This document shows, in pieces, positions 997 through 9,949 of a stretch of DNA of 14,059 bases. How positions within the stretch are numbered: position 1 is the first letter of the stretch; each line of letters begins with the position of its first letter. The stretch covers positions 1 to 14,059 of the forward strand of contig JAPOSK010000464.1 in NCBI GenBank assembly GCA_026709725.1, in the 5' to 3' direction. This DNA comes from Paracoccaceae bacterium. GTDB taxonomy: Bacteria > Pseudomonadota > Alphaproteobacteria > Rhodobacterales > Rhodobacteraceae. The notes under the pieces are model-generated. The model saw nothing but the letters and a program-made list of their open reading frames with translations, made no database searches and was not told the DNA's origin. A program made the position numbers and the translations under genes.

Positions 997-1746
997 GAAA
1001 AATGGACCTCTACAGATCGGATCGAACTCATCCCGCCTCGGTCAAAACCGGGCCCACAATTCTCACCCGCAGTTCCCGGGGAACAGAAAAGGTGATGGCG
1101 GTTCAGGTGTCACTTTCCGACTGTTCCGAATGGGATGATTGAACCCCTTGCCTGGCCTCATGTGAGATGCTCCGGACGACATTCAACAACAATGCACATG
1201 CGCATCTACTCTACTTCCACTCTCGGGTACAACGCCTTGGGCTCAATCCGGGCCAGGGGAAGGACCCACTTAGTCACCCACGATTTTGGATCCAGAGAAA
1301 TCATTATCCTTACCATTCACTAATGACAATGTTTTCTCAATCTAATCACTGTAAAATATTTGAGTTTTCTTTCCCTCTTTGTGACTGTTTTGCCTAGTAT
1401 ACACCCATTCCGCCATTGAGTCCATTTGCTTCCTAATTGGATAATCTGCAACACCATTCGGCGAGAATTCCGAATCCGACATTGATTATCTTCTTGGAAT
1501 GCAAAGTGCAGAAGTCTTCATACTCATTGCGTAATTTTTCGACCCGATTTGTTTTGAGTTGAAAAACTCCGCTATCCTGTTTCACACTATACAAATGACA
1601 ATCTGGTACATTCCCTGAAAAATCGGGAATGCCATGCTGATATCAATATGGCCCTTGTTCCCGCACCAAGATTCTTTTGACTGAGTGGGCTGCAACCGAA
1701 TTTGCAATGGGGCTTAAATTACAAAGCATAGCAGATATTTATAGTA
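997..1746. other. gene-poor intergenic region with a composition step
   Basis: This stretch lies between the start of miaB and the stop of the Hsp90-like ATPase gene. I see no protein family in any frame, no tRNA and no transposase. Short plus-strand frames around 1135-1397 overlap each other, have no recognisable product and are not called. Up to about 1290 the sequence resembles the GC-rich flank; from about 1300 to 1740 it is markedly AT-rich. The miaB promoter must lie in the part near 1000-1250, but no clear box stands out. The change of composition could mark the left edge of an acquired island. Confidence 0.6.
1609..1631 (-). other. small hairpin downstream of the Hsp90-like gene
   Basis: CATTCCC pairs with GGGAATG, and an inner GA/TC pairing past a bulged T closes an AAAA loop. 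It lies about 115 bases past the stop of the Hsp90-like ATPase gene in that gene's direction. No run of U follows on either strand, so it is not a canonical intrinsic terminator. It may be a weak transcription end or chance. Confidence 0.2.
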
Positions 1747-3285
1747 TCACGATCCCTCTGGTAGCACCCGTTCCAGAATCCGGTCAACTAGGACCTTGGC
1801 TGCGATAGGGTCTGCAGAACAGGCATAGATCAGATCAACCACTTCCCGGTAAATTCGTTGCTTCTGAGGCGGAAGATGCTGGAAGGAACTGCCAAACCTT
1901 GCCCCGGACTGTGGGACGGCAGTTTTTGTGGCATTGAACTGACTGTTGAGAGCTTTACGTTCCGCCTCACCGAATAGATCCAATTCTAGTACCTTCTGCA
2001 TACTGGCCAGAAGAGTGTGGATTTCGTCCCGGGCGGTATGAACAAACTGCTCCGACACTGCTCCCTGGTTCAGTATCTCAAGCCTTTCATTGATCTTGCC
2101 AGCAGCATTTGCAAACGCCTTCAAGCGGTTCCGCTTCTGCGATGACTGCCGACATCGGCGTGCAATGTCCATCCCGATCGGGTGAAGATGGTGGACGATA
2201 TTGTCCAGATGATTGCTGCTTTCAAAGGCATCGCGCCGTCCATTCGGGAGCACGCGGGCATCAAGTACATGGACCTCACCAACGGACCACGAGCAGAACC
2301 GATCTTCGGGGAACACCTCAACAAAGAGACGCTCACCCCCGACCTGTATATTGCCAATGCGGGCACGAAGACCTCGTAAACAACTATGTGGAGGTATTGC
2401 GCCCAAGTAATCGTGATGAATCCGCCAGCCGATTGCTGCCATACCTCCCTCTGATCTTTCAATTTCGAAAGACTCCAGGCTGTGAACCTGAGATGTTTGG
2501 GTTTCTGCGTAAGTGATCGTGTCCCGGTAAGGGCGGTAGACTGGTATCTCTGCATCATTGATATGGATTGCATAAACGCGGGCGGCCCGGCCATACGGAG
2601 CCAGAATATTGGCAATCTCCCCACCAAAGGAGAACTCCGGCGCGAAGGGACAGGGAGCAACTTGGCCAAGATAGGAAGCGATCTCCACCTCATTCATAAG
2701 TCGGTCATTGGCAATTCGGCGTGGCTTGACCAACTCGACCTCGAAGAAGTGGGTTGGGTAGTCATCTGGAGGAAGCGTGGTAACCGCCACAGCCTTTTTC
2801 ACAAGGGTCTCAAGATCGTCACCCGCCGAATCCGTGGCCAGAAGCTTCTTGATCGTGAGACAATCCCAGGTGACCTCCATCACCATGGCGTCCCCCACTG
2901 ACCGGGAACGAAAGATGAGCTGCTGACCGTAACCAAGACCGGCCAGTCGACCAATCCCGCGAAAACCCCGGGCATCCGAGCCACGTTTGGAACTGTCTCC
3001 AAACGTCAGCATGGTGGCAGCAAAGTCCTGATTGGCGAGCCCGATACCATTATCGCGCAGTTGAACCCTGCGCGTGGCCTGATCGAGTGTAATGGCAATG
3101 CGGCCCTCACGAGAGGATGAAAGATGTCCGGCTGAGACCGCATCATCGATAGCATCGACAGCGTTCTGCACATACTCACGAAAAATCGAGAGCGGATTGA
3201 CATACATAGCACTGCTCAGAAGCTCGAGAACCCCCTTGCCAACAAAGATATCGGTCGACGCTCGGTCAGCGGGCACATCCGCCAC
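1747..3285 (-). CDS. Hsp90-like (GHKL) ATP-binding protein
   Basis: This 512-residue protein has an N-terminal GHKL/Bergerat ATPase fold. The N box reads REYVQNAVDAID, with E37, N41 and D44 placed as in Hsp90, where the Glu activates water and the Asn binds Mg. The G1 box is DNGIGL (78-83) and the glycine-rich lid is RGFRGIGRLAG (106-116). The C-terminal half has no domain I can name and no HtpG dimerisation region is evident, so this is an Hsp90-like ATPase of unknown role rather than HtpG. The start is GTG, 2 bases after the stop of the radical SAM gene; the Shine-Dalgarno sequence is weak, which suggests translational coupling. The later Met27 would remove the conserved FVGKGVLELL segment. 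Similar stand-alone GHKL ATPases occur in defence islands (family knowledge). The partnership with the radical SAM protein is inferred from spacing. Confidence 0.85.
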   Translation of the reverse strand: MADVPADRASTDIFVGKGVLELLSSAMYVNPLSIFREYVQNAVDAIDDAVSAGHLSSSREGRIAITLDQATRRVQLRDNGIGLANQDFAATMLTFGDSSKRGSDARGFRGIGRLAGLGYGQQLIFRSRSVGDAMVMEVTWDCLTIKKLLATDSAGDDLETLVKKAVAVTTLPPDDYPTHFFEVELVKPRRIANDRLMNEVEIASYLGQVAPCPFAPEFSFGGEIANILAPYGRAARVYAIHINDAEIPVYRPYRDTITYAETQTSQVHSLESFEIERSEGGMAAIGWRIHHDYLGAIPPHSCLRGLRARIGNIQVGGERLFVEVFPEDRFCSWSVGEVHVLDARVLPNGRRDAFESSNHLDNIVHHLHPIGMDIARRCRQSSQKRNRLKAFANAAGKINERLEILNQGAVSEQFVHTARDEIHTLLASMQKVLELDLFGEAERKALNSQFNATKTAVPQSGARFGSSFQHLPPQKQRIYREVVDLIYACSADPIAAKVLVDRILERVLPEGS

Positions 3286-3287
3286 GG

Positions 3288-4883
3288 TTACATGGCCCTG
3301 TTGTGGACAGGCTGCACATCCTCGTCCGTCAGCCCGGCATCCTCGACCCGCTCATCTTCAGGAACCAAAGCCAGGTTATTCCGGTTTCTTCGGCGCCTCT
3401 GCGCTTCCCAGATATCCGTTTCCTCATCCTTGGGCAGAGGCACGAAGTGCCGTGCTGTCTCGCGTAGCGGTCCCGGAGCCAGGGTGGTCAGGTCCATCTC
3501 GTACGAACGCCTGTCACGACCACAAAGGTAATCAAGGAGTTCAGCACGCTCGTCAGCGTCAAGGGCAGCCATTGCGGCCCGATACTCGTCATATTCGGCC
3601 CGTCCCTCATGCTGCTCGTACCATGAGCGGTTGAAGATGTAGTGATGGGGGCGCATGAGAATGCTCTCAAATTCATCATAGGTATCTCCAAAGGCAGAGC
3701 GGAAAAAGTCCGGTGCCCCACTGACAATACCGTGCGTCGCTTGCAGGATCATCTGCATAGAGCGCAGATAGTAGGAGTTCCACTTCCTGCCGACATGTCC
3801 CCGGTTGGGCAGTGTCACCGGCTGGTAGCGCATGGGAAAGGAAAAGATACGGATGCCCAGTTCTTCATTGAGCGTCACGTTGAGGCGCATCCTTTCAAAA
3901 AGGTCTGCCGGGCTGTCATGGAAATTGTAGAGCATATAGTTCGAAAGATCGGTCAGCCCTGCACCTGCCGCGTAGCGAACAGCCTGGGTGTAGGGTTTCT
4001 TGACACCAAGATGGTCAAAGGCAATCCGCAAAGGCTTGATGGCGATACGTGCGAGTTCACGCAAGAACATCGGGTCGCGGCAAAGAATGCGGGCATCGAC
4101 CCCCTGGTTGAAGTCAACACGGCGCTGGATGTCATACCGTCCGCGCCGGAGTGTTGCACCCCTTCCAAACCCCAGATCAATGATTTCGGCGACAATCTCC
4201 TTGAATTTTGCTGAGGCTACAACATTGTTGTCCATCAGGATGAGGTCGCGCTTGTCACCGTAAAGGGCAGAGATGCCCCCCACGACAGTCGTGAGTGAAT
4301 TCGTATCACGCTGGACCCCCTCCAGTTTCGGGACCCCGCAAAAAGCGCACTTGCGAACGCAGCCACGGGACGCATAGGTAAAGTAGGCATCATGAACCGG
4401 ATAGGTGTAGTCGATGTGCTCTAGGATGCTGTAGTCAGGGACCATGTCCTCTATCGGAGTGCTCGCAACATCGTCTGCGTAGAGTTCCTCCTCAAAAGGG
4501 TCAAGCTCAAGTGAATGTGCCGGGGCCTGTCCCAGCAGACCCTTGATAAAGCGGATACCCCGCCAGCGCGGTTCGGCCAGGAACTGCTCATGCATAAGTG
4601 AGGCAGCAATGCCGCCAACAAAGATACGATGCGCCTGATTGCTGGCAAGCTCCAGCGCATAGTCAATGCTGCGGGCGGTGCGGGCCCACTCGAAGGAAAA
4701 GAGCGTTGTGATGTAGATGCGGTCCCAGGCGGTACCGCGGACCGATTGGTCTTCCCCCTTGATGAAGCGAACCGTATCCTGCTTCCCCTGCGGGCCATGG
4801 TACTGGGCAAGTTTCATGAGGCCAAGGGGCGGGTACTTGTTGCGATAGCCCGGCTCAATCAGGAGGATGTTCTTGTTGGCCAT
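3288..4883 (-). CDS. radical SAM protein with B12-binding-like N-terminus, function unknown
   Basis: The product is 531 residues from the chosen ATG. Residues 3-30 (NILLIEPGY then PPLGLMKLAQY) and a GG segment near 90 resemble the N-terminal cobalamin-binding-like Rossmann domain of B12-radical SAM proteins. The cobalamin-ligating DxHxxG motif is not visible, so cobalamin may not be bound. The radical SAM cluster motif is ASRGCVRKCAFC, with C175, C179 and C182 in C-x3-C-x2-C spacing. MDNN and FNQGVDARIL segments follow, as in this broad family. The C-terminus is charged and Arg/Asn-rich. A longer start 39 bases upstream exists (position 4922). I prefer 4883 because AGGAAAGGGGTGAG lies directly upstream and the conserved domain begins there. 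It is first of two genes, followed 2 bases later by the Hsp90-like ATPase gene. The substrate is unknown; nucleic acid or protein modification are both possible. Confidence 0.85.
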   Translation of the reverse strand: MANKNILLIEPGYRNKYPPLGLMKLAQYHGPQGKQDTVRFIKGEDQSVRGTAWDRIYITTLFSFEWARTARSIDYALELASNQAHRIFVGGIAASLMHEQFLAEPRWRGIRFIKGLLGQAPAHSLELDPFEEELYADDVASTPIEDMVPDYSILEHIDYTYPVHDAYFTYASRGCVRKCAFCGVPKLEGVQRDTNSLTTVVGGISALYGDKRDLILMDNNVVASAKFKEIVAEIIDLGFGRGATLRRGRYDIQRRVDFNQGVDARILCRDPMFLRELARIAIKPLRIAFDHLGVKKPYTQAVRYAAGAGLTDLSNYMLYNFHDSPADLFERMRLNVTLNEELGIRIFSFPMRYQPVTLPNRGHVGRKWNSYYLRSMQMILQATHGIVSGAPDFFRSAFGDTYDEFESILMRPHHYIFNRSWYEQHEGRAEYDEYRAAMAALDADERAELLDYLCGRDRRSYEMDLTTLAPGPLRETARHFVPLPKDEETDIWEAQRRRRNRNNLALVPEDERVEDAGLTDEDVQPVHNRAM

Positions 4884-5238
4884 CTCACCCCTTTCCTGCG
4901 GTCTTCCCGAATCGTTTTCCATACCCTACCTGATGATGGAGCACTTGTCGATCCCTTGCGGAAGAGTGCGGCTCAGATTTATTGGACACTCCCTGACTGA
5001 TCATATGATTGGCCCTTGGAAAGCAACAACCCGGGGAGGGTTTGTATCGATTTCTGTATCGGTCCATGTCTATTGCCGCCCACAAGAACACAGAGAGCCA
5101 GCATAACGGCCAAGATGTGCCCCACAAAATTGAGCCGCACCACTTGCGGAAGCAGGTACTTGTCAAATCAACCTATGCTTTATATCCTGATTCACACATG
5201 ATGGCCACAATTCCACATAATGAACAGGAACTTGAAAT
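4884..5238. promoter_or_regulatory. shared divergent control region
   Basis: These roughly 355 bases separate the start of the radical SAM gene (minus) from the first ParB-like gene (plus), and no protein family is seen in them. Promoters for both units must lie here unless transcription enters from outside. A 10-base palindrome, ATCATATGAT, lies at 5000-5009 and contains a TATGAT on each strand. The minus copy could serve as a -10 box for the radical SAM/Hsp90-like unit, though no good -35 is seen. The palindrome could also be an operator. The purine-rich ribosome site for the radical SAM gene lies at about 4884-4897. Confidence 0.45.
5160..5188 (+). promoter_or_regulatory. candidate sigma70-type promoter for the plus-strand operon
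   Basis: TTGTCA (5160-5165, five of six matches to the -35 consensus) is followed after 17 bases by TATCCT (5183-5188, four of six to the -10). It sits about 50 bases before the first ParB-like gene, and an AGGAA ribosome site lies at 5226-5230. It is the best pair I see in this gap, but the -10 is weak. Confidence 0.3.
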
Positions 5239-6249
5239 ATGGCAGTATCGGGTGCATCACAAATGATCCCCGTGGATACAATCGAACTTGATCGTGCTAA
5301 TCCACGAATCCGTAAGTTTCTGGAGATGTATGTCGGCGAACCCACCCCTGAGCAAATCTTTTTGGCACTTGGCGCAGGCAACGAAGAGGAAAGTGAAGGG
5401 TCCTCTATTCCAACCTTTCAGAAACTGAAGCAGTCGATTATTACTCATGGCGGAATCATCCACCCCGTCATTCTTAATTGTCAAAGCGATGGCACGTTAG
5501 TCTGTATTGAGGGCAACACCCGGGTTGCACTCTATAAGGACTTCCTGCAACGGGGCGTGAATGGTGACTGGAGCAACATTCCGGCTCTGATCCACAGCAA
5601 CCTTGAAGACACGGCTGTGCATGCAATTCGTCTGCAAGCTCATCTCGTGGGGCCGCGACCTTGGGATCCCTATTCCAAGGCTAAATACCTCCACGAGCTC
5701 CGGCACATCGACGACATGCCGCTGGCCATGATCGTCGATTTCTGCGGTGGGCGGCAAAGCGAGGTAACTACCTTTATAGATGCCTTTATTGACATGGAGC
5801 AATATTACCGCCCGGTTGTCACCGAAGATGGTGCATTTGATCCAAAGCGGTTCAGTGGGTTTGCAGAATTGCAGAAGCCCGGTATAAAGAAGGCTCTAAA
5901 TGAGACCGGGCACACACTGACGGATTTTGCCACTTGGGTCCACGAAGGCAAACTGAGACCCCTGAATACCGTCCGCCTTCTACCACGAATCCTCAAAAAT
6001 GAGAAAGCGCGCACAATCTTCCTTAAGAAAGGCGCTCGCGCAGCCGAGATGGCACTCGACAAACCCGAGGCAGACCTGAACTTGCAAAAAACTCCACTTG
6101 ATCAACTAGCCTACGCTCTAAACAGTAAACTGGCAGCCCTACCTTATGAGGACTATCAGAGCCTACGGTCTGACCCTTGCAGTGCCACTGTCGAAGCCCT
6201 AATTGATGTCCAGAATAGTTTGACGGAATTTCTGAATAATCTTGGATAG
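5239..6249 (+). CDS. ParB/Srx-fold nuclease-like protein 1
   Basis: This 336-residue protein has an N-terminal ParB-like domain: IELDRANPRIR (15-25), then LKQSIITHGGIIHPVI (63-78), then IEGNTRVALYK (90-100), which is the ParB nucleotide-binding GxxR-type motif in variant form. After it comes a helical segment with HLVGPRPWDPYSKAKYLHEL, which could act like the ParB helix-turn-helix region. The same motif recurs in the second ParB-like gene of this operon, so the two appear to be paralogues. No ParA partner or parS-like repeat is visible, which argues against plasmid partitioning. ParB-fold proteins in DNA modification and defence loci (for example DpdB and DndB relatives) are a better analogy, but that is inference. 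AGGAA lies 8 bases before the ATG. The gene starts the plus operon and is 5 bases from the next gene. Confidence 0.85.
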   Translation: MAVSGASQMIPVDTIELDRANPRIRKFLEMYVGEPTPEQIFLALGAGNEEESEGSSIPTFQKLKQSIITHGGIIHPVILNCQSDGTLVCIEGNTRVALYKDFLQRGVNGDWSNIPALIHSNLEDTAVHAIRLQAHLVGPRPWDPYSKAKYLHELRHIDDMPLAMIVDFCGGRQSEVTTFIDAFIDMEQYYRPVVTEDGAFDPKRFSGFAELQKPGIKKALNETGHTLTDFATWVHEGKLRPLNTVRLLPRILKNEKARTIFLKKGARAAEMALDKPEADLNLQKTPLDQLAYALNSKLAALPYEDYQSLRSDPCSATVEALIDVQNSLTEFLNNLG

Positions 6250-6254
6250 GGTCC

Positions 6255-6671
6255 ATGTCAGAATCCGTCCAACACACACGACTTGTTCAGGCGATAATTG
6301 CCCAGTTGGATACAGATCTCGGTCCTCTATGTGACATCATGGTATGTGATGACTCACCGAATCCTTTGAGGGGTGAGCGGCCTCCAAAACTGTCCGGTTT
6401 CATTCCTGATGTCTATGCCACCGATGTACCAACCACGCGGGTAGTAGTGGGAGAAGCCAAGACTGAGCAAGACCTCGAAACCACTCGATCACACCTACAA
6501 ATCACCGCTTTCCTCACGTATCTATCTGCTATGCGCAACAGCCTCTTTATCCTTGCTGTCCCATTTTGTTGCATACCCAGGGGTAATAACTTGCTGCAAG
6601 AACTTACACGCACCTCCGATACGCCTCCCTTGATCAGGGTCATTGATGATTTTGGGCTGGAACATGGATAG
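6255..6671 (+). CDS. small PD-(D/E)XK nuclease-like protein
   Basis: The 138 residues show the order of motifs expected for the PD-(D/E)XK (restriction endonuclease-like) fold. A first helix (HTRLVQAIIAQL, 7-18) is followed by GFIPDVYA with D52, then VVVGEAKT with E67 and K69, then a helix with Q82 (SHLQITAFLTYL). D52, E67 and K69 would bind the catalytic metal. I do not see a named subfamily; VRR-NUC and resolvase-like proteins are the closest shapes by eye. The protein is hypothetical in that no activity can be proven from sequence. It begins 5 bases after the first ParB-like gene, with GGATAGGG overlapping that gene's stop as a ribosome site, and ends 9 bases before the SNF2 gene. It would supply a DNA-cleaving activity to a cluster otherwise made of motors and binding proteins. 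Confidence 0.7.
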   Translation: MSESVQHTRLVQAIIAQLDTDLGPLCDIMVCDDSPNPLRGERPPKLSGFIPDVYATDVPTTRVVVGEAKTEQDLETTRSHLQITAFLTYLSAMRNSLFILAVPFCCIPRGNNLLQELTRTSDTPPLIRVIDDFGLEHG

Positions 6672-6680
6672 TTTAGCTCT

Positions 6681-8156
6681 ATGCTGCGTGTCCACAAGAA
6701 ACCCAATCTGACCGCCCGACAGGCTGCCTTCCCACATCAGGTGGATGCGTTTGAATCTCTCAAAGACCAACCCTACGCTGCGATTGTTCACGAGCAGGGG
6801 CTGGGAAAAACTAAGATTGGTCTTGATCTGGTACTGTTCTGGCTAGCTAAGGGCGTGGCTGACTCTGTTCTCATTGTCGCTAAGAAGGGCCTGATTAAAA
6901 ACTGGCGAGACGAGGTGGCCACTCACAGCCACTTGCAACCACGAATCCTGAGCCAAGACCGAACGGCAAACTTTTATGCATTAAATAGTCCTGCGGCACT
7001 TTATCTAATCCATTACGAGGCTGTTTTATCCGAACGTCACCGCTTGGCCTTGTTCCAAAAGACACGTAAGGTCGGCGTACTCCTTGATGAAGCCCACAAA
7101 ATCAAGAATCCAGAGGCAAGAGTTACAATTGCTCTAAATGAGCTTTCTGTTGGCTTCGTACGGCGTGTCATCATGACTGGCACTCCGATGGCCAATCGTC
7201 CCTTTGACCTCTGGTCTCAGATCAAGTTTCTCGATAACGGCAAGGCTCTCGGCACAAATTTCTCTAAGTTTAAGCAGGAGCTTGACCTAAAGAACGATCT
7301 TGATCAGAATGCCGCGCGTGCCACTGCGTTTGCTGATGGTTTGGAGGCGACCTTTCAAAAGATTCAATCTTTCACTGTCCGAGAGACCAAAGCATCGGCA
7401 GGCCTCCGTCTACCGGACAAAACTCTGTTCAATCGTACCTGCCCACTTGAGCCTCGACAAGCCGAGCTCTATGCCGAATTTCGTAACGAACTAGCTGCAA
7501 TAATCGTCAAGAAAGGCAAACCGATCCTTGATGATGCCGAAGTTATTCTGAAGCGTCTGCTGCGCCTTGTCCAGATCGCAGCCCACCCAGCACTAGTCGA
7601 TCATAGCTACTCTGGTACCCCCGGCAAGATTCCAGCCCTTGATTCTCTTGTCCATGAAGCTATTGATGCGCGGGAAAAAATCATTGTTTGGACATCCTTT
7701 GCTGATAACGCCGAGAGACTCAGGGAGCATTTTGCTCTTTATGATGCCGAGGTCGTACATGGTGGCCGTAATATGGCCGAGCGAGAAGCATCTCTTATGG
7801 CGTTCAAGACCGATCCAGCATGCCGTGTACTTGTAGCCACACCTGGAGCTGCCAAGGAAGGGTTAACCCTAACCGTGGCGAATCATGCAGTTTTTTATGA
7901 TCGGGTGTTTAGCCTCGACGACTATCTACAGGCACAGGACCGCATTCATAGAATTTCACAAGAACGTCCTTGTTTTGTAACTAACCTAATTGGCGAAAAC
8001 ACGATTGATTCTTGGGTTGATTCGCTTCTTGCAGCCAAGAACCTTGCAGCCAAACTTGGTCAAGGTGACATTGGGCGGAGGACCTACGAAGCCATGATCG
8101 ACTATCGATTTGGTGACATGCTAAAAGATGTGCTTGGGCTTGAAGGTGAGAATTAA
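6681..8156 (+). CDS. SNF2-family DEAD/DEAH-type helicase/translocase
   Basis: This 491-residue protein is a compact superfamily 2 Snf2-type ATPase that would move along double-stranded DNA using ATP. Motif I is EQGLGKT (38-44), motif II is LLDEAHKIKN (134-143) and motif III is MTGTPMANRPFDLW (from 165). The C-terminal RecA lobe carries IIVWTSFADNAERL, ATPGAAKEGLTLT and motif VI QDRIHRISQ (419-427). The protein is little more than the two lobes, with no fused nuclease, methyltransferase or bromodomain. In defence loci such as DISARM (DrmD) and Dpd (DpdE), SNF2 proteins work with separate effectors; here the nuclease-like gene immediately upstream is the obvious candidate partner (inference). 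The ribosome site before ATG 6681 is poor, suggesting coupled translation. Its stop overlaps the next start by one base (TAATG). Confidence 0.93.
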   Translation: MLRVHKKPNLTARQAAFPHQVDAFESLKDQPYAAIVHEQGLGKTKIGLDLVLFWLAKGVADSVLIVAKKGLIKNWRDEVATHSHLQPRILSQDRTANFYALNSPAALYLIHYEAVLSERHRLALFQKTRKVGVLLDEAHKIKNPEARVTIALNELSVGFVRRVIMTGTPMANRPFDLWSQIKFLDNGKALGTNFSKFKQELDLKNDLDQNAARATAFADGLEATFQKIQSFTVRETKASAGLRLPDKTLFNRTCPLEPRQAELYAEFRNELAAIIVKKGKPILDDAEVILKRLLRLVQIAAHPALVDHSYSGTPGKIPALDSLVHEAIDAREKIIVWTSFADNAERLREHFALYDAEVVHGGRNMAEREASLMAFKTDPACRVLVATPGAAKEGLTLTVANHAVFYDRVFSLDDYLQAQDRIHRISQERPCFVTNLIGENTIDSWVDSLLAAKNLAAKLGQGDIGRRTYEAMIDYRFGDMLKDVLGLEGEN

Positions 8157-9178
8157 TGGAACGCATGGAACAATCCAACGTACAGCCAGAAACAGAGGAT
8201 ATGCTACGCATCAGAGGCCAAGATATTCCGGTTATAACGACAACCATGCGGCATCTACAATTGAAGTTCTTTGTAGACAATCCAAGAATTTACTCTGTCT
8301 TGCGTAGGGATAAGAATGTCGAGCCCAGCCAAGAGGACATACAGGCCAAGCTTACTGATATGGAACATGTCAGGGAGCTGATTCAGGACATCCGCCGCGA
8401 TGGTGGTTTGACCGACCCAATCATCGTTCGTCGAGGGACATGGGAGGTGCTGGAGGGAAACAGCCGTCTTGCCGCCTACCGCCGCTTAGCCGAACTTGAC
8501 CCCCTAAAGTGGAGCATGATTAAGGTACGTCTGCTTCCCGAAGATGTTGATGACAAGCTGATCCTGGCCTTGCTGGGGCAGTACCACCTCAAGGGCAAAA
8601 CGGCTTGGCCACCCTTCGAGAAGGCGGGCTTCCTCCACCGTCGCCACATAGAACACAACGTGCCGGTAGACCAGCTAGCACGGGAGGTTGGTGACACCAA
8701 AAACCGCGTGGGTCATCTTCTGAAAGTGTATGATTTCATGTTGCATCATGACCAAGATGAGAAGGACCGCTGGAGCTACTATGATGAGTATTTAAAGTCG
8801 CAGTTCATCAAAAAAGTACGGAATGACGAACTTGACAAAGTGGTGGTGAAGAATATCACGACTGGTGACATACCGAGGGCCGTCGATGTACGTGACAAGC
8901 TTGCTGTGATTTGCAAGATTCCTAAAGTTCTAAAAAAATTCAAATCCGGCAGTTACGATTTTGAAGATGCATATTCAGCGGCAGTTCAAGGCGGGGCTGA
9001 CAGCACACCCTATATGAAATTGTCAAAGTTTCGCTGTTGGCTGGCTACCAAAGAAGCTACGGATGCGCTCTCTAGAACAAGCGGTGAAACCCGTAAAAAA
9101 ATTACTTATGAAATGAAAAGACTGAACGCTATCGTACCAAAAGCACTTAAGAATCTGGAATCACAGGACATAGATTAA
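8156..9178 (+). CDS. ParB/Srx-fold nuclease-like protein 2
   Basis: The 340 residues include an N-terminal ParB-like domain: LKFFVDNPRIY (36-46), an inserted charged segment, IRRDGGLTDPIIV (79-91), and LEGNSRLAAYRRL (99-111). A helical region follows with QYHLKGKTAWPPFEKAGFLH, matching the W-x-P-x-x-K-A-x-x-LH pattern of the first ParB-like protein, then EVGDTKNRVGHLL, which looks like a helix-turn-helix. The C-terminal part is basic and has no name I can give. Its start overlaps the SNF2 stop by one base, and GAAGGTGAG lies just upstream, so the two are very likely co-translated. Two divergent ParB-like copies in one operon, without ParA, suggest heteromeric DNA binding or a modification/sensing role rather than partitioning. 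Confidence 0.85.
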   Translation: MERMEQSNVQPETEDMLRIRGQDIPVITTTMRHLQLKFFVDNPRIYSVLRRDKNVEPSQEDIQAKLTDMEHVRELIQDIRRDGGLTDPIIVRRGTWEVLEGNSRLAAYRRLAELDPLKWSMIKVRLLPEDVDDKLILALLGQYHLKGKTAWPPFEKAGFLHRRHIEHNVPVDQLAREVGDTKNRVGHLLKVYDFMLHHDQDEKDRWSYYDEYLKSQFIKKVRNDELDKVVVKNITTGDIPRAVDVRDKLAVICKIPKVLKKFKSGSYDFEDAYSAAVQGGADSTPYMKLSKFRCWLATKEATDALSRTSGETRKKITYEMKRLNAIVPKALKNLESQDID

Positions 9179-9221
9179 ACAGACCCAGAAATCCAATAAT
9201 CACGCAAGGAAATACGGAATC

Positions 9222-9644
9222 ATGACAGCACACAAAGACATTTCGGTAATCGAGATTGACTTCGATGTATATCAGAGCATCGTAGCAAGGCAGCGGGGGT
9301 TTGATGACTCGCCCAATGCAGTTCTGCGTCGGGTTTTTGACTTGCCAACTGAATCAACAGAACTTGCACCCGGCAATGTTGGGGCAATGATGGAGTTGGA
9401 GATTGCCCCGGATAATGTTGAGTTACCGCATGGAACAGAACTGCGGATGGAATATTGGGGCATCCGGCACACCGGCAAGATCCAAAACGGGGAATGGATT
9501 ATCAAAGGAAAACACGTCAAGTCACCATCAGCTGCTGCCATAGAAGTTGCGGGTGGTGTTTCCTTGAACGGTTGGAAATATTGGTGGGTTAAGCGCCCTA
9601 GCGACAAAACCTTTATCCCACTGGAATCACTGAGGTATCAATGA
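9222..9644 (+). CDS. SeqA-like ribbon-helix-helix plus RAMA-domain protein
   Basis: This 140-residue protein has two recognisable parts. Residues 8-41 (SVIEIDFDVYQSIVARQRG, then SPNAVLRRVFDL) resemble the N-terminal ribbon-helix-helix/oligomerisation segment of SeqA, with its IEVDDELY...ILRRML pattern. Residues 70-140 fit the RAMA/DUF4357-like domain: GTELRMEYWG, a GKIQNGEWI strand pair, KSPSAAA (100-106) and the hallmark LNGWKYWWV (115-123). RAMA domains are predicted readers of modified or methylated DNA and are often fused to methylases or nucleases; here the domain is fused to a DNA-binding dimeriser. The gene is 43 bases after the second ParB-like gene, preceded by AAGGAAA. A role as sensor of modified DNA, or as local repressor of the divergent promoters, is inference. 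Confidence 0.75.
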   Translation: MTAHKDISVIEIDFDVYQSIVARQRGFDDSPNAVLRRVFDLPTESTELAPGNVGAMMELEIAPDNVELPHGTELRMEYWGIRHTGKIQNGEWIIKGKHVKSPSAAAIEVAGGVSLNGWKYWWVKRPSDKTFIPLESLRYQ

Positions 9645-9877
9645 TATCTGTATATAATCTTATCCATGTTGCATGTCGGAATGATGGGTTTGATGCCATC
9701 AGCGAAGGATATGGCAACGGAAGCAATCAGCTCAATTCCAGAACCTGCTCGTATTGGTCAGTGCAAACTTATCACAACGGGCGCGGTCTCCGTATGGTGA
9801 ACTCGGAAATCTATAAGTCACTGATCATCTCCAATCTCTATCAAAATCACATAATTCCCATATCAGCAATTTGGTAA
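9641..9877 (+). CDS. possible small protein at the operon end, unrecognised
   Basis: This 78-residue frame overlaps the RAMA-protein stop by four bases (ATGA), and GAGG lies 5 bases before its ATG, a typical translationally coupled arrangement. The product is rich in Asn, Ser and Tyr, with no signal peptide, no convincing membrane span and no motif I can name (it includes SEGYGNGSNQ and SYWSVQTYHNGRG). It may be a real small gene, the 5' remnant of a longer truncated one, or a chance frame. Only the start context supports it. Confidence 0.35.
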   Translation: MISVYNLIHVACRNDGFDAISEGYGNGSNQLNSRTCSYWSVQTYHNGRGLRMVNSEIYKSLIISNLYQNHIIPISAIW

Positions 9878-9913
9878 AAAATGAGCCTCGTTTCCTGAAT
9901 TTTTGCAACAAAT

Positions 9914-9942
9914 CCGATCCGACTATGGGCAGTTCCGATCGG
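9914..9942 (-). terminator. weak hairpin between converging units
   Basis: CCGATC (9914-9919) pairs with GATCGG (9937-9942) around a 17-base loop. It lies just after the livM stop on the minus strand and is followed there by ATTTGTT; on the plus strand it is followed by TTTCCC. The two units converge here, so a bidirectional terminator would be expected. The short stem and poor U tracts make this a weak candidate. Confidence 0.3.
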
Positions 9943-9949
9943 TTTCCCG

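Follow-up and report, generated by a model that had tools for sequence, protein, structure and literature searches.

A radical SAM enzyme and Hsp90-like ATPase core with exchangeable modules, a candidate anti-invader system in a Paracoccaceae bacterium

The stretch of 14,059 nucleotides analysed here (contig JAPOSK010000464.1 of assembly GCA_026709725.1, from a Paracoccaceae bacterium), hereafter the window, carries a seven-gene cassette: a radical S-adenosylmethionine enzyme (rSAM), an Hsp90-like GHKL ATPase (GHKL), two ParB-like proteins (ParB1 and ParB2), a small PD-(D/E)XK nuclease-like protein (PDX), an SNF2 family motor and a RAMA-like protein. We found that rSAM and GHKL form a constant core across genomes and that the ParB1-PDX-SNF2-ParB2 quartet is one of several exchangeable modules beside this core, the others being a DndB-family fusion, a PIN gene with a second GHKL gene, and HerA/NurA. 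The set would work in the manner of modular DNA modification-restriction, but the hallmarks tested for Dnd, Dpd, Zorya and DISARM are missing from it. Judging from the sequences, we consider it an even call that these genes constitute a mobile modular anti-invader system, in which the core product would probably be a mark on host DNA and unmarked invading DNA would be cut.

Constant core and exchangeable modules

Two short patterns from rSAM were used to scan 84,980 species genomes; of the 217 relatives obtained, the best 80 were kept, a choice which favours close relatives. These 80 genome loci were joined by 18 viral stretches, 13 plasmid or phage stretches, 7 further loci and the window to give 119 sources, and 99 rows were left when 20 duplicate, short, distant or cut sources were set aside. 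GHKL lies within 8 kb of rSAM in 104 of the 109 loci whose rSAM has at least 450 residues (some duplicates included), and in 91 of the 99 rows it is downstream on the same strand, at most 150 bp away, with a median gap of -4. For 68 loci the sequence extends 5 kb or more to either side (full-context loci); GHKL is present within 8 kb in all of them and SNF2 in 40. The host labels comprise Pseudomonadota, Acidobacteriota, Verrucomicrobiota, Chloroflexota, Gemmatimonadota and further groups, in addition to viral contigs; many of the genomes are metagenome bins.

The same association was observed on plasmids. Among 72,556 plasmid records, rSAM matched 19, 12 of them at 60-80% identity, and the 12 records matched by GHKL over at least 80% of its length are identical to these 12; the 7 distant rSAM records do not occur in the set of 22 that GHKL matched. 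The 7 records found with ParB1 all belong to the 12, with ParB1 less than 6 kb from rSAM by coordinates, and the best 7 of the 224 SNF2 records (39-68% identity) are the same 7. One plasmid on which rSAM, GHKL, SNF2 and ParB1 are all present is NC_012854 of Rhizobium leguminosarum bv. trifolii WSM1325. These plasmid records are not independent strains, since three pairs share an organism.

When viral contigs were scanned with ParB1, all eight contigs found had the whole quartet and seven had rSAM and GHKL. The eighth, L168, has no GHKL; it carries another radical SAM gene, with a stop that overlaps the ParB1 start; this gene matches the rSAM family profile (probability 97.4, E 1e-11, 215 columns). 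ParB1 was never seen without a nearby radical SAM gene (7/7 plasmids, 8/8 viral contigs), and rSAM-GHKL without the quartet is common (5/12 plasmids; 30/68 loci without SNF2-with-ParB). Such an asymmetry is expected if the core product is required by, or must not meet, the nuclease module. A scan with GHKL gave 17 loci on 16 viral contigs, with rSAM on 14 of the 16; one contig without rSAM, L198, is cut at the GHKL gene. Near the quartet of L168, an open reading frame (ORF; L168:6210-7781) resembles by eye a reverse transcriptase, which may belong to a diversity-generating element.

The quartet itself is coherent. By a six-frame search of the 99 sources, the nuclease is present in 48 of the 50 with SNF2 and ParB, in agreement with the proposal of an earlier note on this DNA that nuclease and SNF2 act as one unit; the two remaining sources (L004, L005) are short stretches ending near SNF2. 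ORF calling gave the full ParB1-PDX-SNF2-ParB2 order in 31 of the 48 rows with SNF2 and missed it in some others, and the layout of the window, with the quartet upstream on the opposite strand, is found in 10 of the 48, window included. As a control, six loci with distant SNF2 relatives (L178-L183, 23-37% identity) were searched for rSAM, GHKL, ParB and PDX, and none was found there.

Other genes accompany the core in the 68 full-context loci: a short DndB-family gene (DGQHRs) in 34, a long one, the DndB-family fusion (DGQHRl), in 15, PIN in 25, HerA in 3 and a NurA-like gene in 4. One representative each of DGQHRs and DGQHRl scored 35.0 and 54.9 bits against the DndB family PF14072 (cut-off 29.1), and one representative of the PIN gene is a PIN_8 protein. 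The N-terminal part of DGQHRl, which we take to resemble Mrr-like nucleases, has a motif of the type RQ-L/I-DVFAKDD...VECT, with R106-Q107, D109, E122 and C123 in 17/17 sequences that have this part. HerA was confirmed by structure 7f6d (E 2e-57), and the NurA call comes from a weak match (E 1.1) together with the depositor name of one member, 'single-stranded exonuclease associated with Rad50/Mre11 complex'. Of the 68 loci, 62 carry one or more recognised module genes (SNF2, DGQHRl, HerA, NurA-like or PIN). The quartet and DGQHRl are seldom together: DGQHRl occurs in 1 of 38 loci with the quartet versus 14 of 30 without it (Fisher p 1.3e-5). The SNF2 state changes 20 times on the rSAM tree. 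DndB genes are absent from the window and are partners in many relatives; these PF14072 partners are the best link to DNA modification. In L052 (13277-15175) and other loci, a PIN_8 gene and a second GHKL-family copy form a recurrent pair, often beside the core, which may be a module or a system in its own right.

The locus is not a chance arrangement, because its gene order is found again in other genomes. Of the earlier proposal that seven families occur together, the conservation in unrelated genomes was borne out; what is conserved is a core with exchangeable modules rather than a fixed seven-gene set, the RAMA-like gene being rare.

Proteins of the cassette and its site of insertion

rSAM scored 14.8 bits in Pfam, below the cut-off, and 134 bits against PHROG 9298, 'radical SAM domain protein'. 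The cluster motif CxxxCxxC is present in 99/99 rSAM rows and fold matches give a radical SAM barrel, which place the protein in the radical SAM superfamily. By sequence, no close relative was found among solved structures (best E 0.016); the nearest folds are AprD4, MgmA, TsrM and MiaB, enzymes which act on small molecules, proteins or tRNA. Cobalamin-binding radical SAM enzymes carry the motif DxHxxG in their N-terminal domain. This motif was found in 0/99 rSAM rows within the first 180 residues, and a cobalamin-dependent methylase was rejected on this ground. The radical SAM gene of the earlier note was retained, with its start moved by alignment from 4922, where the longest ORF begins, to the conserved 4883. 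Near the C-terminus, the acidic pattern DERVEDAGL is present in 88 of the 99 rows and a near variant in 4 of the 11 others; it is absent in 4 of 6 HerA/NurA-type rows, one of these four having the near variant.

GHKL scored 39.1 bits against PF13589 (HATPase_c_3, cut-off 25) and its profile matched an HtpG structure (E 6e-12), so that its designation as an Hsp90-like GHKL ATPase stands. The GHKL motif residues E37, N41, D78, G110 and G112 are kept in 145/145 family sequences. By PHROG and tblastn, the RIIA lysis inhibitors of phages are distant relatives of this protein.

In the quartet, the ParB-like calls of the earlier note were upheld by the match of ParB1 to Noc, which indicates a ParB N-terminal domain, and by weak models, namely TIGR00180 for ParB2 and ParB-like PHROGs for both. 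ParB1 has NPR in 52/52 family sequences and E-G-N-T-R in 46 to 52 of 52; ParB2 has E-G-N and R in 53/53 family sequences with letters at those positions. PDX gave no match in Pfam, NCBIfam, PADLOC or PHROG. Its D, PD and E-A-K residues are invariant in 27 relatives, and its AlphaFold2 model has a predicted local distance difference test score (pLDDT) of 92.8, with mostly restriction endonucleases as structural neighbours; from the PD...E-x-K residues and the alpha-beta fold of the model, PDX is predicted to be a PD-(D/E)XK nuclease. SNF2 exceeded the cut-offs of both PF00176 (SNF2-rel_dom, 93.8 bits) and PF00271 (Helicase_C, 55.6 bits), and its G-K, D-E and QDRIHR motifs, corresponding to Walker A, Walker B and motif VI, are present in 50/50 family sequences.

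The last gene had been described as RHH-RAMA. The RAMA match was recovered below threshold (26.8 bits, Pfam gathering 35.2), and the N-terminus matches SeqA_N instead, also below its cut-off. A relative, 44% identical, adjoins the cassette in L021, and in the 99 sources besides the window the gene is clear in L021 and weak (E 0.005) in L103. We therefore rejected it as a core member; it is a lineage-specific addition.

Table 1. Features of the window (coordinates in nucleotides)
Feature	Coordinates	Strand	Basis or remark
Inserted cassette between miaB and livM	997..9949	.	Same-genus junctions and GC contrast
Hsp90-like GHKL ATPase, core gene	1747..3285	minus	PF13589
Radical SAM enzyme (rSAM), core gene	3288..4883	minus	Conserved start from alignment
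Acidic tail motif DERVEDAGL near rSAM C-terminus	3330..3356	minus	Model pLDDT <50 there
Divergent control region, 355 bp	4884..5238	.	Between rSAM and ParB1
ParB1, ParB/Noc-like	5239..6249	plus	Profile A9 against Noc chain, E 8e-4
PD-(D/E)XK nuclease-like small protein (PDX)	6255..6671	plus	Invariant residues and AlphaFold2 model
SNF2 family motor, 491 residues	6681..8156	plus	PF00176, PF00271
ParB2, ParB-like	8156..9178	plus	TIGR00180 E 0.006, PHROG ParB-like matches
SeqA_N-like and RAMA-like protein	9222..9644	plus	Lineage-specific accessory

All seven ORFs are present, and their coordinates agree with the two divergent operons described earlier; successive genes of the plus run are 5, 9, -1 and 43 bases apart, and GHKL and rSAM are 2 bases apart. 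The end of the locus had been set at 9877; the last gene actually stops at 9644. The control region between the operons, about 190 bp long in L021, was searched for an operator-like inverted repeat of at least 8 bp within 60 bp and none was found. A small ORF in it (4885-5166) was judged by eye an unlikely gene. Rfam families and tRNA genes were looked for in the window and not found.

The placement between housekeeping genes was also borne out. We compared the miaB region in seven same-genus relatives, G001 being left out since its contig ends there. The gap between livM and miaB is 13-61 bp in G002, G005, G006 and G008; the two genes are separated by 0.6 kb in G003, and miaB has different neighbours in G004 and G007. 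Because livM adjoins miaB in four same-genus relatives at the point where the window carries seven genes, the cassette is an insertion; its guanine-plus-cytosine (GC) fraction is 0.508, versus 0.564 for miaB and 0.581 for liv. No direct repeat of at least 9 bp common to both edges was found, and inverted matches between the edges reach 9 bp at most. The identical gene order, RAMA-like gene included, is present in an Aestuariivita bin (G037/L021), near an ORF resembling argininosuccinate synthase, a family matched by one of the 135 flanking ORFs described below. The cassette lies elsewhere in that genome and can therefore occupy another site as a unit.

Searches of two samples of the class with rSAM and ParB1 each found the genome of the window alone (1/289). 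The spread is patchy, with relatives in 4/8 other same-genus genomes and, at E 1e-60, in 0/288 other genomes of a class sample, and the same-genus copies are scattered over distant clades of the rSAM tree. This tree, together with the insertion at miaB/livM, points to a cassette that is mobile by transfer.

Comparison with known systems and genomic surroundings

Against PADLOC-DB 2023 and NCBIfam, the seven proteins matched no named system beyond SNF2-domain similarity; weak ParB- and RAMA-type matches were to candidate models (PDC, PD-Lambda-5) and to methyltransferase models. DndC, DndD, DndE, DpdA and the other Zorya and DISARM genes were unmatched among the seven proteins, and so the set can be held distinct from these systems, as had been suggested. 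No description of it was found in a literature search that had preprints and most subscription journals outside its range.

Dnd phosphorothioation loci share the DndB-family partners seen in many relatives and the modular layout of modification plus nuclease; unlike them, the present set has as candidate modifier a radical SAM enzyme with an Hsp90-like ATPase. A DndC search of the own genome gave 20.9 bits, on another contig only (cut-off 290.4). With Dpd, which places 7-deazaguanine in DNA, the set has in common DndB-like proteins in relatives and an SNF2 scoring 108 bits to the DpdE model PDLC02842, but the 491 residues of SNF2 align only to positions 727-1144 of the 1176 in this model. Zorya consists of ZorA and ZorB with ZorC/D or ZorE, and DISARM of DrmA/DrmB with a methyltransferase. 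The SNF2 domain is related to the ZorD (136 bits) and DrmD (64 bits) models; however, only the SNF2 part of ZorD was matched among the seven proteins (ZorD equivalog 82.8, cut-off 1500), and the matches to DISARM, in the DrmD and DrmA models, were all of the SNF2/helicase type. A minority of relatives join the core to HerA and a NurA-like gene as in HerA-nuclease systems, but rSAM and GHKL are extra there and, as said, NurA is weakly matched. The phage proteins of PHROG 9298 are shorter than the window rSAM that matches them, and GHKL is not annotated near them in three stretches rich in 'hypothetical' genes; one adjoins a PHROG 62 helicase and a ParB-like gene in the archaeal virus vir335. 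To our knowledge, an Hsp90-like ATPase and a radical SAM enzyme in one operon are known from no characterised system.

Two further observations concern DNA modification. On another contig of the same genome (G000:C109; L206:3305-4960 and 5952-7106) there is a DndB-family gene (52.9 bits, above the cut-off), near an ORF that begins, by eye, like a cysteine desulfurase; this pair is possibly a separate Dnd-type locus. In four plasmid or phage stretches (L015, L019, L201, L203), distant radical SAM relatives lie within several kb of genes annotated as PAPS reductase or sulfotransferase, DNA methyltransferase or thymidylate synthase, possibly a phage DNA-modification theme.

We also considered the genes around the cassette. 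In 70 loci, 329 ORFs of 200-700 residues flank the core block at a distance of at most 6 kb; a random sample of 135 of them came from 64 loci, 7 near-duplicate loci being skipped. As a control, 133 of 190 ORFs were drawn from 20 random stretches in family relatives. At 1e-10 the flanking ORFs matched 177 PADLOC families versus 4 in the control; the earlier note had proposed testing for enrichment near known defence genes. Seven of the 25 families listed, each with 2-3 members, are PD-T7-1, PD-T7-5, AriA, GajA, PtuA, Old and AbiLi. Phage integrase domains occur in 6 of the 135 flanking ORFs and are not among the 25 of 107 families listed for the control. Of the 119 sources, 16 have a tyrosine integrase family and 10 a serine recombinase family. 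Relatives of the cassette are found on plasmids, some predicted conjugative, and on viral contigs.

Possible function and rival explanations

In the mechanism that we propose, rSAM and the co-translated Hsp90-like ATPase would make a chemical product by radical chemistry, GHKL probably serving as a clamp or chaperone for rSAM. The exchangeable nuclease modules would act on information from this product: the ParB-like proteins may recognise DNA or load on it, while translocation would fall to SNF2 and cleavage to the small nuclease. If the product is a mark on host DNA, the unmarked invader would be cut, as in restriction-modification, Dnd and Dpd. We infer the defence role, the DNA mark and the parts given to GHKL and the ParB-like proteins from gene content and context. 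The DNA mark is the leading reading because of the DndB-family partners and the asymmetry between ParB1 and the core, and the modules are seen as nuclease units because the DndB fusion (through D109, E122 and C123), PIN_8 and HerA carry nuclease-like parts. We tentatively put forward, with somewhat less than even confidence, a new self/non-self class in which rSAM and the Hsp90-like ATPase would mark DNA and interchangeable ParB- or DndB-guided nuclease modules would read this mark.

Several points weigh against this proposal. No DNA-binding domain was identified in rSAM, its nearest folds are those of small-molecule, protein or tRNA enzymes, and the window itself has no DndB gene. Other core-plus-accessory designs would give the same asymmetry, and on the viral contig L189 (GHKL at 7560-9191) rSAM was not found in 19 kb. 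The core stands without a recognised module in 6 of the 68 loci, DGQHRs being present in 3 of these 6. The motif of the DGQHRl fusion is without the canonical ExK lysine, and the exclusion between the quartet and DGQHRl is borderline on independent tree pairs (median p 0.0625, range 0.0156-0.219). The flank counts are of PADLOC models and not of proteins, their control covers one bacterial family and the test set several phyla, and the 135 test ORFs include 3 HerA/NurA genes, which were counted as modules too.

The folds of rSAM would also suit a defence without any DNA mark. In such a system rSAM would yield a small molecule or, like viperin, a nucleotide, or it would modify a peptide or protein, and this product would report the infection or arm the nuclease. 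GHKL could then be a sensor, or the chaperone of a protein substrate, and a passage of PMC7159879 attributes to a radical SAM gene of another conflict system the modification of a peptide effector. The DndB-family partners and the ParB1 asymmetry lead us to prefer the DNA mark, and we regard this alternative as rather unlikely. It is improbable, in our view, that the set instead serves the fitness or maintenance of mobile elements (anti-plasmid action, inter-element exclusion or DNA segregation), with the ParB-like proteins and the nuclease directed at rival elements and not at phages. The plasmid and viral copies, the integrase and recombinase families and the presence of two ParB-like proteins speak for it; the flanks nevertheless match known anti-phage models, the copy in the window lies between chromosomal housekeeping genes, and such a role is compatible with defence, not exclusive of it.

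HerA and a NurA-like gene are a repair pair, and their presence in some relatives would fit metabolic or DNA-repair genes that travel together by chance, with no conflict system at all. The patchy spread in the genus and the class, the rapid module exchange on the rSAM tree and the defence-rich flanks make this very improbable.

The analysis defines a multi-gene family with a constant two-enzyme core, across several phyla and viral contigs. If the core modifies DNA, as in the reading that we prefer, radical chemistry would join the known routes of self-marking, and the DNA modification itself would probably be new. Were its product a signal or a nucleotide, this would be a new kind of immunity based on a radical SAM enzyme. 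Either way, an Hsp90-like ATPase and a radical SAM enzyme share one operon.
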